From positions 434,001-498,000 of the forward strand of contig CANNBJ010000001.1 of the NCBI GenBank assembly GCA_947502835.1: a stretch of 64,000 nt of DNA, given 5' to 3'. Position numbers and translations under genes: made by a program. The notes below the pieces were generated by a model. The model was not told where the DNA came from. It ran no database searches and worked only from the letters and a program-made list of their open reading frames with translations. Position 1 is the first letter of the stretch. Every line of letters starts with the position of its first letter. Positions 29,775 through 36,642 of the stretch are shown piece by piece. The stretch comes from Bdellovibrionales bacterium (GTDB lineage: Bacteria > Bdellovibrionota > UBA1018 > CAIMNF01).

Positions 29775-30941
29775 CTACACAAACTCGCCGCGCTTGATCT
29801 TATCCACAATGATCTTCTCAGGCATGGTGGGATCCTTCGGATTCACCGAGAAGAAAGCCTGTTGCTCGCAACGGCGCTTGTTCTTGTAAAGCCAGCGGAG
29901 GATGTCGGCAAGCCCCTTGTTCCGCTTGTCCTGAAAGAACGGATCGTTCTTCAGCGCATCGTCCGCTTTTTTCAGCGCGCGCACTTCCTGAACATCGTTC
30001 TCCTTGACCGGATAATCAAAGAGGTCATAGCGCTTGATGTCTTCGGGCAAAACTCCAAGGAATTTCACATCAGGAGCACTGTAATCCTGATTCCGGATCA
30101 AAGACGCGGCAGAGCCGGCCTTGAGTGTGCGGTAGATGTTCTGGAGCGTGTACGCATCGAGGTCCCCGAAGAAGTACATCGGAACATCGAGCTGGTCCTG
30201 GATGAGCTTGGCCCACCCGCGAACCGCATTCGAGGGAACCCCTTGAGCACCCATCACGATGCAATTGTGCCGCTTGGTGATTCCGTTTGCGACCAGGGTG
30301 TTTGCGGTACCCTCGGATTCGACGATCAGACAGAAATCGATCTTCTTCTTTGCCGAAAGCCTCAGGTTTTGAGGCCGGTTCTTCGGCTGAAAGGGTGAAG
30401 TTCCAAGTTTTGAGAGATCCACCACCGCTGTGTCCCCGTCGGTCAGGGTCTCGGTCACCACCAGCTGCTGGGAATAGGTCTGGCCTCCGCGGTCGTTTGC
30501 GTAACAATTGAACTCTTCCCGATAACACTCGAGAATCTCGCACAAAAAGTCGATCGTCTCGTCACTCTCGCCCTGTTCGGTGAAATCTAGGGGTTTCAGC
30601 AATGGTGTGTTCTTCGTTTCACCCTTGCTCATGTAGTACAACTCGCGCTTCGTGTTCACAGCTCCGCTCTCGATGTTCCGGAGCAGGATCTCGAGCATGA
30701 ACACGGCCCGGGACATCTTTTTCACCGAGCTTACGTTCAGCTCGGTTGCGACCTTTTTTCCGCCCGGGGTGAGGTACCCCACCTTGTGATTGTAGATCGA
30801 GTTGTCGAGCGAGCACTTGGTTGCGTGAAGCACCGGACGCTTTCCTTTTTCAAGGTCGTTCAGAAGCTTCAGGCACAGGGCCTTGCTCAGTCCCGGAATC
30901 TCGCTTTGAAGTTTTCCGCCTTTGCGTGTCGTGGTGCTCAT
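29775..30941 (-). CDS. top6A: DNA topoisomerase VI subunit A (Spo11-like)
   Basis: A 388-residue homologue of archaeal Top6A/Spo11. The winged-helix cleavage domain holds 'NTKRELYYMSKG' with the catalytic Tyr at about Y103 (the second Y, by alignment with Spo11 R-D-I-F-Y). The Toprim domain has 'FCLIVESEGTANTLV' with its Glu and 'YFFGDLDAYTLQNIYR' with the D-x-D metal site. It cuts both strands of duplex DNA to pass another duplex through. The start overlaps the stop of the subunit B gene (ATGA), so the two are translationally coupled. Typical of archaea and plants and scattered in bacteria. Confidence 0.93.
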   Translation of the reverse strand: MSTTTRKGGKLQSEIPGLSKALCLKLLNDLEKGKRPVLHATKCSLDNSIYNHKVGYLTPGGKKVATELNVSSVKKMSRAVFMLEILLRNIESGAVNTKRELYYMSKGETKNTPLLKPLDFTEQGESDETIDFLCEILECYREEFNCYANDRGGQTYSQQLVVTETLTDGDTAVVDLSKLGTSPFQPKNRPQNLRLSAKKKIDFCLIVESEGTANTLVANGITKRHNCIVMGAQGVPSNAVRGWAKLIQDQLDVPMYFFGDLDAYTLQNIYRTLKAGSAASLIRNQDYSAPDVKFLGVLPEDIKRYDLFDYPVKENDVQEVRALKKADDALKNDPFFQDKRNKGLADILRWLYKNKRRCEQQAFFSVNPKDPTMPEKIIVDKIKRGEFV

Positions 30942-32587
30942 GCTTGCTCCTCGGAGTCTTTTGCTTTTTGGATTTCGAGCTTTTTGTTCGCATCCGTCAG
31001 CTCTTTTTCAGTTTCGTTCGTATCGCGGCCCAGGATCTTCATGAGACCGTCCCGGGCGCGTTTCTTTTGGTCTTCCTTGGCCTGCGTAATGCGCGCGAGC
31101 CCCTCGACCAGGATCGGGCCGAATTGCTCGATGTAGCGGATTTTTTCCTCGAGCTCGTTTGCCTTGTCCTCGGCCTTGATGTAGCGCGAGAGCTTTTGGC
31201 CTGCCTGGATGAGCGCGCGCCGGATTTCCTCGACGAGCTCATCGGACGCATCGATCGTCTCTTTGGATGCGTTTTTGAATTTGATGAAAGGGCTCACCAC
31301 CGAGACTGCAAAGATATAAGGCCCAAGCGGAAACGCGTCCTTTGGTTGCGCAAGACCATAGGCGCGCCAGTTCACAGACGAGAGCGCCTGAGCGATGGCG
31401 CAGGCCGACTTGTCGAACTGAAGCGGCACCCGGTTTGCAAACCGCAGCAACTGCGAGGGATCATCCGCATCGCCTCCGCGCTGCTCCAGTCGCGCAATCG
31501 CCACCTCGACCTGAACCGGCTTGAAATCGCAGATCGTGGGTTTCCGAGTCACGACCGAGAAGAAATCCACCTTGCCAAGACGCTGGATGCTCTTTGACAT
31601 CGCATCTTCGCCAATGCTGAGAACGGAATTTGTGGAGGGAGCTTTCAGTTCTGTGTTCTGGATTGCTGAAAAAAGCTTGTTCAGGTCGCCATCTGCGAGC
31701 TGATCGACGAGCTTTTCGAAGTTCGCCTTCGGTACGCCGAGTTCTTTTTTCTTTGCGATCTCCTCGATCACGCTGTCGCCCACGCGGCTGAAGCCTTTTT
31801 TGAGCCACGCGGAAACCTTCTGCCGGCCAAACAGGTGTGAGTGGGCAATGAACTCGCCCAATTTCATGGTGTGGGGATGCGGCTCGGTCGCCTCCGGAAT
31901 CATGGGAACATCATTCGAGACCCGTTCCACTTTTTGAACCTCTTGGTCGGGAAGCTTGTACTCAAGCTGGAGGTGGGGATTCACAAGAGTGGTTCCGAGG
32001 AGATAGTTCAGAAGCCCTGCCTCGCCGTTGATCTGGATTCGACCATCAAAGACAAACTCGACGCGCGTTCCGTGGGGACGATCCCAATCAAAGGTTTCGC
32101 GATTCTTCATCACGCCCTTGTTGTTCTTGATGTCGACCTCGATCATGGCCGAGACGGCTTTGCGCATATTCTTGGTCTTTGAAACCACCTTGGCACCCTG
32201 TGCGCAGGTGAGTTGGGCCCAGGTGGTGGCCGCCGAAATCCCGATCCCCTGTTGACCGCGAGTGCACCTTCCCCGACCGAACTTCGAGGAGGCAAGATAC
32301 TCGCCAAACACCTTAGGAAGGTCGTCGGCGTCGATTCCGGGGCCGTTGTCCTCGACTACCACACGAATTCGCTCGGAATTCTTGATAGAACCTGCCCCCA
32401 GACGGTCGATTTCAACCCGGAGCGAGGGGGTGATTTGGTGCTCCTCACAGGCATCCAGCGCATTGTCGACGGCCTCCTTCAGCGTGGTCAGGACGGCCTT
32501 GGTGGGGCTTGAAAACCCGACTTGTTGGAGATTTTTTGAGAAATATTCAGCGGTTGAGGAACTCGAGATCTTTTTTTGCTCTGCCAT
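30938..32587 (-). CDS. top6B: DNA topoisomerase VI subunit B (GHKL ATPase)
   Basis: A 549-residue subunit with all parts: the GHKL ATPase motifs 'KEAVDNALDAC' (E39, N42), 'VVEDNGPGID' and 'RGQQGIGISA'; the H2tH region with 'AHSHLFGRQKVSAWL'; and the transducer domain with 'VTRKPTICDFKPVQVEV' and 'LLRFANRVPLQFDKSAC'. ATP binding closes the B dimer and drives strand passage by A2B2. Complete, with no frameshift or lost motif. It lies 44 bases after the helicase-nuclease gene, with a small hairpin over its ribosome-binding site, and overlaps subunit A by four bases. Confidence 0.95.
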   Translation of the reverse strand: MAEQKKISSSSTAEYFSKNLQQVGFSSPTKAVLTTLKEAVDNALDACEEHQITPSLRVEIDRLGAGSIKNSERIRVVVEDNGPGIDADDLPKVFGEYLASSKFGRGRCTRGQQGIGISAATTWAQLTCAQGAKVVSKTKNMRKAVSAMIEVDIKNNKGVMKNRETFDWDRPHGTRVEFVFDGRIQINGEAGLLNYLLGTTLVNPHLQLEYKLPDQEVQKVERVSNDVPMIPEATEPHPHTMKLGEFIAHSHLFGRQKVSAWLKKGFSRVGDSVIEEIAKKKELGVPKANFEKLVDQLADGDLNKLFSAIQNTELKAPSTNSVLSIGEDAMSKSIQRLGKVDFFSVVTRKPTICDFKPVQVEVAIARLEQRGGDADDPSQLLRFANRVPLQFDKSACAIAQALSSVNWRAYGLAQPKDAFPLGPYIFAVSVVSPFIKFKNASKETIDASDELVEEIRRALIQAGQKLSRYIKAEDKANELEEKIRYIEQFGPILVEGLARITQAKEDQKKRARDGLMKILGRDTNETEKELTDANKKLEIQKAKDSEEQA

Positions 32588-32592
32588 GGGTA

Positions 32593-32618
32593 GGCCTCAG
32601 TGAACCAAAAAGGAGGCC
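32593..32618 (-). promoter_or_regulatory. Hairpin covering the ribosome-binding site of top6B
   Basis: On the minus strand GGCCTC (32618-32613) pairs with GAGGCC (32598-32593) across a 14-base loop. The GAGG of the second arm is also the best Shine-Dalgarno sequence for the ATG at 32587. No T-tract follows, so it is not a terminator. A role in setting subunit B translation is inference. Confidence 0.35.
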
Positions 32619-32631
32619 CCCCGTCAACCAT

Positions 32632-35445
32632 TCACAGTTTGGCCGGGCAAGACTCCCGCACTTCGCAGTACCTGCAATGCTCCCCGGCCTGAGGGGATTC
32701 ATCCTCCGATTTTGCCCGAGCAAAGAGCTCTGAAACCTCGTTTGAGATCACTGAAGGGCCAAACCAGGAAGCGGGAGCCGGAATGATCTCAAAGGAGGTT
32801 TCCGTGAAATGAACAAGAAAGCCCTCGATCTTGACCGGCTCAAAATCAAGAAGCTTGATTGCAGCATGGGCATACAAACGAAGCTGCAGCGCGTAATTCA
32901 AGAGGAGGGCCTGCGCCTCTACCGGTTTTGAGGTGAATTTGTAATCAATCACGCGGATGGCTTTGGTCTCAAAATCAACCTCGAGCCGATCCATCATCCC
33001 CACCAGGGCCTCGCGGTCCGATAGCGGGACCTCAAAGGCGAGCTCGGTGTAACTTTTGATCGCCCCCCCTGAATCCCGAAGAAATCCTCGAAGTTCAGAA
33101 ACAAAGCGCGCCCCAAGTGCCGGATCCGGGAACTCGGAGACCAATTCTTCATCGCGTTTCTCCTCGATGAACTTGTGGATTCGCTCGCCTCGCTCTGCAG
33201 AAGCGGATGCGGAAATGCCCTTCCCGGATCCTGTCACGCTCCCCGCCTTCGTATCCTCCACTTCGTGCTCAAGGAAGCGCTTCCGATACCTACGGGCACA
33301 TTGATTCAGCACCATCCACTCGCTTGGGGAATGACGTGCGCGATAGGGTTTTGAGTCAAAAGCAATCTTTTCGGGGAGCGCGGAAGGACCATCGGCAGGA
33401 CCTTTCTCCTGGATCGCGGCCTCGCCCGGCTCAAATGACAAAGCCTCGGGAACGCGCGCCGCCTTCACCCATCCACGCCAGTTGTCCTCAAGGTACGGAT
33501 CATACCCGGGCTCCTGACTCTTCTTTGATTCCTTCACCTCTTTTTTCCAGACCAGGATCAAACGCTCTTGCGCTCGTGTGAGCGCGACATAGAATACTCT
33601 CTTGCTCTCGGCGATCGCAGATTGCTTCTCGAGTTCCTTCCACTTCACATTCTCCGGATCATCCTTCAGGGTTTCACCGTCCTCGTCACGATTCAAAAGA
33701 TGAACGCCGAGCTTTCGATCCCAGATCAGATTTCCGCTCCGGTTCGAATTGCGTGAGGGCCCCTCGAAATCAAGAAGGATCACACGCGGAAACTGCAAGC
33801 CCTTGGATCCATGGACCGTCATCACGCGAACCATGCCCTTTTCAGCGGGAGCAGGAACCTCTTTTTCGATCTTTTCGTTCTCCACAGCATCGGTCAGTTG
33901 CGCCACCACCGCCTCAAAGCGGAGCCCCTGCCTGCTCCACTCCTCGACCTTGTGCCAAAGCGAGACCAGAGGCGCATACAGCTCCTCATCGAGGACCTCA
34001 AGAGCCAGGAGCCCGGCCAGAATCTGCCCGGGACGAACCGTGGAGGTTCTTCCGGGGGAAAGATAAAGTTCACCCAGCGCACGGGCGACGGGATGGGTTT
34101 TTTCGGTGAAAAAATGCTTGAAGTAGGCTCCCTTTTTCTGAAGGAGCCACTCATCTGAAACTCCGATCCACGGAGCCCGAAGAGCAGTGACCTGCGAGAT
34201 CGTATTTTCGGGGGAAACCCAGCCCTTCAAAAACGCGATCGCCTCGAGCACGCGCGGATCCTCGTAGAACCTGCCTCCACTCCCGAGCAGAAACGGAATG
34301 CCCCGCTCCTCAAGCACGAGCAAAAAGGCGCGGGTTTTGGGATTCCGGAGCGTGCGGGCGAGGATGACGAACTCGGAGAGATCCACACCCTTTCGCTGCT
34401 CCGAGAGCAGAAACCCGGCGAGATCGGCCTCACGGGTCCACTCAAGAATCGAGACTGCGCCCTCACCCGTCGCATCCCGTCGTGCGAGGAGGGGCTCATA
34501 GGGAAGGTTCGAGGCTTGAAAGGCTGGCTCGCAGACCTCATTCACAAACTCGATGATCGGCGGACGGGATCGGTAGTTTTCATCAAGCACATGTCGCTCG
34601 GCAAGACGCACGGTCAGGTCCTGGAACACGGACACATCCGCGTCCCGAAAACGGTAGATCGATTGCTTCGGGTCGCCCACGATGCACATGTTCTTGAGAC
34701 CCGGCTTCACAAACCGCTCAAGAATCCGGCCTTGCAGGGGGTTTGTGTCCTGGAACTCGTCCACCATCACGAGATCAAACCGGGAATGGAAGTGATTCCG
34801 GACCCGTTCATCCGAGAGCGCGAGATCAGCCTTCAGTTCAAGATCATTGAAATCAAGGCCTCCGTCCCGGTTCTTCGACTGCTGATAGCGCTGATAGACC
34901 GATTCGAAGACAAGCCAGAGATCCCGCACTTCCTGTCGATCAAAGGACTTGGAGATGAACTCGTCCACGCCAAAGGACATGAGGCTCCTGAGTTTCTTGA
35001 GAAGCTCCTCGAGCGAGCCGCGGGAGTACACCAATAACAGCCGATCCAGTGCCTCACTGATCCCGGCATTGTCGTTCGAGCTCCAAAGCACCTCGAGACT
35101 GCGACCCCAAAGGCGATTCGCCTCATCCTCGATCAGGATCCGCTCGCCCCCTTGCAGGCCCGCTGCCACCGGAAACTCGTGCAGGACCGAGGCGCAGAGT
35201 CCGTGGATGGTCTTGACCCAGTGGTCCTGGAGGTCGACCCCGCCTAATTTTTCGCTGAGCGACTCCCGAAGGTCCCGAACGGACTTTTCGGTAAAGGAGA
35301 CCGCGCAAAACCGGGCCTTCGGGTTTCGGCTCAGGAGCTCCCGGCACTTGGCCACAAGGGTGGTGGTCTTCCCGCAGCCGGCGCCCGCGACCACAGCAAG
35401 GCCCCGCCCGAAGGATTCCACAATGACTTTTTGCTTCTCGTTCAC
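32632..35445 (-). CDS. UvrD/RecB-like helicase with C-terminal Fe-S PD-(D/E)XK nuclease
   Basis: A 937-residue superfamily 1 helicase: Walker A 'GAGCGKTTTL' (21-30), Walker B 'LVMVDEFQDTNPLQ', motif IV 'DPKQSIYRFRDADV', and 'MTVHGSKGLQFPRVILLD' and 'VFYVALTRAQERL' as motifs V and VI. The C-terminal 220 residues are a RecB-type nuclease ('GMMDRLEVD', 'VIDYKF') with four cysteines placed as in AddB/Cas4-type Fe-S nucleases: C716 ('NQCARRY'), C924, C927 and C933 at the end. It resembles AddA but with the Fe-S cluster of AddB; no AddB partner is adjacent. It precedes the topoisomerase VI genes in the same direction. Confidence 0.9.
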   Translation of the reverse strand: MNEKQKVIVESFGRGLAVVAGAGCGKTTTLVAKCRELLSRNPKARFCAVSFTEKSVRDLRESLSEKLGGVDLQDHWVKTIHGLCASVLHEFPVAAGLQGGERILIEDEANRLWGRSLEVLWSSNDNAGISEALDRLLLVYSRGSLEELLKKLRSLMSFGVDEFISKSFDRQEVRDLWLVFESVYQRYQQSKNRDGGLDFNDLELKADLALSDERVRNHFHSRFDLVMVDEFQDTNPLQGRILERFVKPGLKNMCIVGDPKQSIYRFRDADVSVFQDLTVRLAERHVLDENYRSRPPIIEFVNEVCEPAFQASNLPYEPLLARRDATGEGAVSILEWTREADLAGFLLSEQRKGVDLSEFVILARTLRNPKTRAFLLVLEERGIPFLLGSGGRFYEDPRVLEAIAFLKGWVSPENTISQVTALRAPWIGVSDEWLLQKKGAYFKHFFTEKTHPVARALGELYLSPGRTSTVRPGQILAGLLALEVLDEELYAPLVSLWHKVEEWSRQGLRFEAVVAQLTDAVENEKIEKEVPAPAEKGMVRVMTVHGSKGLQFPRVILLDFEGPSRNSNRSGNLIWDRKLGVHLLNRDEDGETLKDDPENVKWKELEKQSAIAESKRVFYVALTRAQERLILVWKKEVKESKKSQEPGYDPYLEDNWRGWVKAARVPEALSFEPGEAAIQEKGPADGPSALPEKIAFDSKPYRARHSPSEWMVLNQCARRYRKRFLEHEVEDTKAGSVTGSGKGISASASAERGERIHKFIEEKRDEELVSEFPDPALGARFVSELRGFLRDSGGAIKSYTELAFEVPLSDREALVGMMDRLEVDFETKAIRVIDYKFTSKPVEAQALLLNYALQLRLYAHAAIKLLDFEPVKIEGFLVHFTETSFEIIPAPASWFGPSVISNEVSELFARAKSEDESPQAGEHCRYCEVRESCPAKL

Positions 35446-35487
35446 GGGCTAAAGTTTGTCTTAGTTTTGACGATAAGGGAAGAGGAT

Positions 35488-36642
35488 ATGGACCCTCGGG
35501 ATTCGTCGCCGAAAATCGCGTTTTTCATGGATGACCGCCTCCCTCACGACCGAAAGGCCGTGTTCACGAAACTCGTGTCGGTGCTGAGGCCAAAGTACAA
35601 TCTCGAGATCATCCCGGCCAGCTTCAGCGAGAGTGATTTCATCAAGCACCTCGAGACCCATGCTTATACGGTGATCTTGCTCCCGTGGTACCGGTATCTT
35701 TCCTGGAAAAAACTGGAAACCCGTTTTGGTTCTCTTCGTCTTGAGGGACCGACGATTGCGGGGTACTTCGCCGATGCGATCCTGCCCTTTGAGCTCTCCG
35801 CAATGCCTTCGTTCCACCAGATGATCCTCCTTGATTTTTACCGTCTCGATTCTTTTGAGATCGAGACCATCCTACAGGCCCTCGTGTTTCCGGACCAGAA
35901 GGCGGGATTCCGCGGAATCCTTCCTCAGACCACTCCCATTCACCATCAGGACTGGTTTGACCATGATGGTGCGAACACCCGGTGCATTGATGCAATCATG
36001 AACACGACACTCATGAAGGCAAAGCGGTGGTCGGAGCGCACCCAGCAGCTGCGGTTTTTCCTGACAGCACTTTGGACCCTCGCCTTCTCCGAGCGCACCC
36101 AAAGGAGAACCGGGGAGCGGATTGCCCAGATTGAAATCGCCGAATTCTCAAAGCGGATCGCGATCAAGTTCGTGGTCGAGGATGCGGACCTGACCTTGAA
36201 ACAGATGATGGAATACTTTTGGCCCTCGCAGAATCACCAGAACCAGGCGATCCATGCGATGATCAAGAACTCGGATTTCATCCGGGTCGCCCACTTCCCC
36301 GAGTCGCGCCAGATCGAGATCACCGCTTTCTTTCTTGAGTCCTCGCCCACGCTCCGGCACCCGGGCGAGATGCGCGGATTCTGGATCGAGCCGCAAAAGC
36401 TGAAATACCTCCGCTCCTCGGCGGAAGACAGCTTTTTAAAACGGATTCCCATCCACACCGCGAAGAAGGATCTTGTGACCGAGCAATTCCACGAAGTGCT
36501 CGAGCATCTGAAGGCGGTTCACCTTTCGCTCGGGAACATCTCGCATGAAGAGCGATTCATCATGGAACATCAGGTCTCGAACATCCGGTTCCTGATCCAG
36601 GCCATCGAAAAGAAAGTGGCGGAGCGGAAAAAAATCGCCTAA
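35488..36642 (+). CDS. Hypothetical cytoplasmic protein, 384 aa
   Basis: No family recognised. The start at 35488 is chosen because GGGAAGAGG precedes it. The N-terminal 110 residues look like an alpha/beta (response-regulator-like) fold: 'KIAFFMDDRLPHD', 'NLEIIPASFSESDFIKHLE', 'YTVILLPWYRYLSW', but without a clear acidic phosphorylation pocket. The rest is helical and basic, ending 'IEKKVAERKKIA'. Divergent from the helicase-nuclease gene (42 bases between starts), and 12 bases ahead of the beta-propeller gene, with which it probably forms an operon. Confidence 0.65.
   Translation: MDPRDSSPKIAFFMDDRLPHDRKAVFTKLVSVLRPKYNLEIIPASFSESDFIKHLETHAYTVILLPWYRYLSWKKLETRFGSLRLEGPTIAGYFADAILPFELSAMPSFHQMILLDFYRLDSFEIETILQALVFPDQKAGFRGILPQTTPIHHQDWFDHDGANTRCIDAIMNTTLMKAKRWSERTQQLRFFLTALWTLAFSERTQRRTGERIAQIEIAEFSKRIAIKFVVEDADLTLKQMMEYFWPSQNHQNQAIHAMIKNSDFIRVAHFPESRQIEITAFFLESSPTLRHPGEMRGFWIEPQKLKYLRSSAEDSFLKRIPIHTAKKDLVTEQFHEVLEHLKAVHLSLGNISHEERFIMEHQVSNIRFLIQAIEKKVAERKKIA

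Follow-up and report, generated by a model that had tools for sequence, protein, structure and literature searches.

An AddA-type helicase-nuclease gene adjoining the topoisomerase VI genes in one family of Bdellovibrionota

Topoisomerase VI is described as a preferential decatenase that carries out ATP-driven duplex passage via a reversible double-strand break (PMC8837201). According to Allen and Maxwell (2024; PMC11302465), it was transferred into bacteria at least twice separately, and Bdellovibrio has gyrase and topoisomerase VI without topoisomerase IV. AddAB unwinds and degrades broken DNA ends until it reaches a Chi site, leaving a 3′ tail for RecA (PMC4824097), and a 2005 survey found addA and addB colocalised in 33 of 34 co-occurrences (PMC1193525). 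In this study, we analyzed a stretch of 64,000 nucleotides (the window) from a Bdellovibrionales bacterium (assembly GCA_947502835.1, contig CANNBJ010000001.1, positions 434,001 to 498,000), in which a helicase-nuclease gene directly precedes the genes for both subunits of topoisomerase VI. The genome assembly comprises 2.73 Mb in 8 contigs and is 98% complete. The enzyme types are known, while their arrangement is peculiar to the family of this genome, designated f1 (family and genus labels such as f1 and g1 are those of the genome-search tool). The helicase-nuclease is an AddA-type subunit, presumably of an AddAB-like enzyme. We consider, with a probability of roughly 0.8, that a single lineage-specific relocation of addA made neighbors of two ordinary genome-maintenance activities, one of which is topoisomerase VI replacing topoisomerase IV. 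The adjacency itself would carry no joint mechanism. No description of a top6-addA operon was found among open-licence papers.

The locus and its three proteins

The three genes are encoded on the minus strand in the order addA-like gene, top6B and top6A. The addA-like gene (32632–35445, GTG start) encodes a 937-residue SF1A helicase with a C-terminal Fe-S PD-(D/E)XK nuclease. Its stop is separated by a 44-bp intergenic gap (32588–32631) from the start of top6B (30938–32587), which in turn overlaps top6A (29775–30941) by 4 bp (ATGA). These coordinates agree with a preliminary description of the same DNA, which did not give the strand. The catalytic motifs listed there were borne out for all three proteins by alignments and by conservation in homologs. 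The gap makes co-transcription of the addA-like gene with top6BA likely. No promoter- or terminator-like site was found in it, and scans for promoters and terminators returned no more sites than in shuffled sequence, so that they are uninformative on co-transcription.

The helicase-nuclease matches the Pfam families UvrD-helicase (1.5e-50), UvrD_C (7.6e-26) and PDDEXK_1 (3.1e-17), and thus joins a UvrD-type motor and a C-terminal RecB-family nuclease in one chain, as AddA does. The motor has a Walker A motif G-x-G-x-G-K-T (residues 21–27) and DEFQD (229–233); the nuclease has H757, E805, D819, D834 and K836; and four cysteines of the Fe-S type are found at 716/924/927/933. The motifs, the nuclease residues and the four cysteines are conserved in 20 orthologs. 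An AlphaFold2 model (30 sequences, pLDDT 83.4) was compared with the Protein Data Bank (PDB) using Foldseek, and AddA chains of AddAB occupied ranks 1–4 (E down to 6.3e-37), followed by RecB and then UvrD; the TM-score of the AddA match was just 0.53 with a large rmsd, and the placement of the domains is uncertain. The assignment as AddA-type is based on this best structural match and on the position of the gene after an AddB-like gene in sister families (see below).

The AddA subunit of Bacillus subtilis AddAB (PDB 3u44 and 4cej) shares the SF1A motor and the C-terminal nuclease with our protein and is its best fold match; the addB-addA gene order is shared by the sister families. Our protein differs from B. 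subtilis AddA (1,232 residues) in being shorter and in that, here, the AddA-type subunit has a set of Fe-S cysteines; in f1, moreover, its gene stands apart from addB. RecB of RecBCD and AdnAB belong to the same helicase-nuclease superfamily and are the next-best fold matches; unlike in those enzymes, the sister-family partner is AddB-like with no match to a motor domain. The four-cysteine set is invariant in both the AddA-like and the AddB-like proteins, and it is present in several AddA-type sequences from other phyla and missing in others.

Top6B (549 residues; GHKL ATPase, H2TH region and transducer) scores above the cut-offs of NF003218 (2.9e-158) and TIGR01052 (5.3e-116), and matches PF09239 (1.6e-44). 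Its residues 5–501 align with Methanosarcina Top6B (2q2e_B, 2.2e-86), and with the N-box and glycine boxes conserved, the ATPase motifs are complete. Top6A (388 residues) contains a TP6A_N winged helix and a Spo11 Toprim domain (PF21180, 1.6e-37; PF04406, 2.1e-13). Alignment with a solved Top6A structure (1d3y) showed that the cleavage tyrosines (Y102/Y103) and the Toprim DxD (D260-x-D262) are retained, and the catalytic residues are conserved across 26 aligned homologs. The match to the topoisomerase VI subunit A model NF003335 (5.4e-121) reached 404 bits, below the cut-off of 424. All the features of both subunits are therefore present, namely the winged helix, cleavage tyrosine and DxD in Top6A and the GHKL and transducer domains in Top6B. 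The pair is predicted to form an A2B2 topoisomerase VI, in which two tyrosines would transiently break both strands of one duplex, ATP would gate the passage of another through the break, and the break would be resealed; this copy would be expected to decatenate by such strand passage.

An AddB-like partner and the origin of the adjacency

In the sister families, the ortholog of the addA-like gene is located directly downstream of an AddB-like gene, and the two overlap or abut in 10 of 11 loci. The AddB-like proteins there have approximately 870–1,040 residues, one PDDEXK domain and an AddB-like Fe-S cysteine set, and neither a UvrD/motor-domain match in the domain search nor a sequence match in the PDB was found for AddB-like proteins. 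The genome studied here encodes its own AddB-like protein of 860 residues on another contig (G000:C4:416923-419502, L114:7923-10505), with a PDDEXK_1 domain, four invariant cysteines and weak matches to AddB models and TIGR03623. Therefore, an inactive-motor partner with an Fe-S nuclease, as expected for AddB, is present, its identity being based on gene order, the PDDEXK_1 domain, the Fe-S cysteines and the weak profile matches. The AddA-like and AddB-like proteins are the only two PDDEXK_1 proteins of this genome, in which no separate RecB-type nuclease was found. The AddB-like gene is kept in all 13 f1 genomes; addA adjoins addB in the sister families, but not in f1. The AddAB-like enzyme would unwind and resect broken DNA ends for RecA, with the AddA-type protein as its motor-nuclease subunit; the two proteins presumably form a complex and process ends as AddAB does.

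addA immediately precedes top6B in the same orientation in 13 of 13 f1 genomes from two genera; in one of these, the contig ends within top6B, and addA shares a fragment with the beginning of top6B. The adjacency was absent from all 23 other genomes of the order for which the region upstream of top6B was inspected, from all 18 genomes from other parts of the phylum and from all 20 Myxococcota. In several f2 genomes, addA and top6B share a contig at a distance of 21–103 kb. Family f3 possesses topoisomerase VI, and nothing closely matching this helicase was found there. The f1 helicases form a single clade (support 100/98). f1 and its sister families have the flank downstream of top6 (FKBP, globin) in common but not the upstream one, suggesting that the top6 locus stayed in place and addA moved in. 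We propose that, in the f1 ancestor, addA left an addB-addA operon, landed directly upstream of top6BA and remained there. If so, an addBA operon that is normally inseparable came apart in one family, and addA joined an operon unrelated to it.

Topoisomerase VI as the probable substitute for topoisomerase IV

Among 97 genomes of the phylum, Top6B was found in 75 and Top6A in 76, and each subunit was found in 52 of the 62 near-complete relatives. Hence, this phylum is an exception to the bacterial rarity of type IIB topoisomerases stated in the preliminary description. Top6A of the dominant type is approximately 69–98% identical to the copy in this genome. Families f12 and f16 have a far more distant type (approximately 33% identical) similar to that of Myxococcota, and this second type is consistent with the multiple transfers reported by Allen and Maxwell (PMC11302465).

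The preliminary description had raised the question of whether the same genome also has gyrase and topoisomerase IV. Gyrase is present once, as a single adjacent gyrBA operon (one PF00521 gene and one PF00986 gene, with a GyrA-box-like motif QGRGGKG), and no second GyrA/ParC or GyrB/ParE was detected in the assembly. Bdellovibrio bacteriovorus and other bacteria with topoisomerase VI (PMC11302465) likewise have complete Top6A and Top6B with gyrase and without topoisomerase IV; in contrast to f1, no AddA-type gene adjoins top6B in the examined relatives outside this family. The 62 near-complete genomes divide into 51 with topoisomerase VI only, six with topoisomerase IV only, one with both and four with neither. 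The Fisher value for mutual exclusion is 2e-5, which ignores shared ancestry, and only a few lineages underlie the contrast (f15, plus f9 among the less complete genomes). The pattern is therefore supportive, not independent proof. The single gyrase and the absence of topoisomerase IV here, together with the near-exclusion in the phylum, suggest that topoisomerase VI replaces topoisomerase IV, most likely doing its job as a chromosomal decatenase/relaxase alongside gyrase. This substitution has already been proposed for Bdellovibrio and is extended here by the phylum-wide count.

Bd0005 of B. bacteriovorus is called topoisomerase IV in a review (PMC11318664), in conflict with Allen and Maxwell. 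The single-contig relative G062 has only one GyrA-type gene; it is located approximately 6.5 kb along the chromosome and adjoins gyrB, which suggests that the label of Bd0005 refers to gyrase.

Four near-complete small genomes, G060, G068 and G094 (f11) and G075 (f19), have a single gyrase, and neither topoisomerase IV nor VI was detected in them. The f15 genomes, which are without topoisomerase VI, carry a second short type IIA pair (e.g., G064:C1:1225162-1226870 in L246) consisting of a ParC-like protein of 477–489 residues and a ParE-like protein of approximately 690–745 residues with a weak C-terminal match. G077 (C83:3534-6493) is the only near-complete genome in which topoisomerase VI is accompanied by an additional gyrase-type pair; with 5% contamination in this genome, the co-occurrence may be an artifact.

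Joint function or neutral neighborhood

Several observations weigh against a chance relocation of an AddA-type gene. The best NCBIfam model for the helicase-nuclease is AddA TIGR02785 (2.3e-54), with 184.7 bits, far below the cut-off of 707.65; we therefore use the label AddA-type and do not treat the protein as a curated AddA equivalog. A survey reported that standard TIGRFAM profiles miss known AddA and AddB homologs, and built its own profiles instead (PMC6452273). Since addA and addB are seldom separated (PMC1193525), the displacement is also unusual. Furthermore, the adjacency has been kept with tight spacing despite divergence of the helicase to approximately 43–54% identity across f1, and from this long retention, selection for co-expression is possible. 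Finally, a PcrA/UvrD helicase of approximately 750–785 residues is located 1–11 kb from top6 in families f10 (L247, L248, L251 and L252) and f16 (L253, L254 and L255), one of which has the dominant topoisomerase VI type and the other the Myxococcota-like type. A rough hand estimate, made for a pattern noticed post hoc and assuming three such helicases per genome, approximately 12 kb around top6 and 13 families, gives an expectation of approximately 0.2 families against the two seen. This proximity is suggestive of coupling and no more. The PcrA-type gene differs from the addA-like gene in that it encodes no nuclease and is not operonic with top6, having other genes in between or lying on the opposite strand.

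The alternative that survives best is co-regulation, in which the products of both genes are needed in one and the same growth phase but are not coupled physically or mechanistically. It is compatible with most of the relocation account and differs in whether the adjacency is useful or neutral. The long retention, the short gap and the lack of a predicted terminator between the genes are in its favor, as is the bimodal, phase-structured replication cycle of Bdellovibrio, a relative with topoisomerase VI (PMC11318664). However, addB did not move with addA, and we regard co-regulation as a tentative possibility, well short of an even chance.

The preliminary description took the three genes for an operon of a helicase-nuclease and a complete topoisomerase VI, recalling Spo11 plus resection in meiosis. 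A dedicated module of this kind would serve recombination or chromosome separation, with the ends left by topoisomerase VI cleavage being resected or cleared by the co-expressed helicase-nuclease. It would account for the short-gap, same-strand arrangement retained across f1 despite strong divergence of the helicase, for the unusual displacement from addB, and for the PcrA-type helicases in two other families. The domains and an operon-like layout stable in f1 stand, but a joint module is not supported. Among the genomes examined, the helicase is beside top6B only in f1, and topoisomerase VI is retained, without this neighbor, across the order and in most of the phylum, the very observation that the preliminary description had named beforehand as refuting the link. 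Moreover, the helicase partners AddB in the sister families, and topoisomerase VI is the sole decatenase candidate besides gyrase. Top6A is homologous to Spo11, and in meiosis resection nucleases act on the breaks made by the Spo11 core complex. However, Top6B here has a full ATPase and transducer, pointing to a resealing topoisomerase and not a Spo11-like cutter, and the nearby nuclease comes from a conserved AddAB-like pair. A Spo11-type break-forming complex, characterized by a Topo VIB-like subunit lacking a complete ATPase, was rejected as a candidate on the basis of the complete Top6B motifs. We consider a dedicated module improbable.

It is similarly doubtful that the relocation itself created a working link, in which co-produced topoisomerase VI and the AddA-type motor pass failed cleavage complexes or broken tangled ends to resection. 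If this were true, the PcrA-type helicases loosely clustered around top6 in two other families would reflect the same need, and a functional link would represent a bacterial counterpart of a Spo11-type enzyme coupled to end resection. In the relocation account, topoisomerase VI and AddAB would come together solely at breaks that the topoisomerase fails to reseal, as can happen in every cell. The present case cautions against inferring joint function from genes being neighbors in one genome.

The weakest alternative, that the helicase-nuclease left AddAB and acts alone, for example as a defense or plasmid-clearance nuclease, draws on its separation from addB and on PADLOC GajB helicase models that match its motor, but these matches span only the shared UvrD motor, Top6A and Top6B match no defense model, the AddB-like gene is retained throughout f1, and the neighboring genes examined are housekeeping or without an assigned family, with no mobile-element gene, making it very improbable. 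Gabija (GajA TOPRIM nuclease and GajB) or another defense system was dropped as a candidate on the same PADLOC results.

Beside the addA-like gene, a divergent gene (35431–36642, plus strand) encoding up to 403 residues matched no Pfam or NCBIfam family; it adjoins addA in most of family f1.

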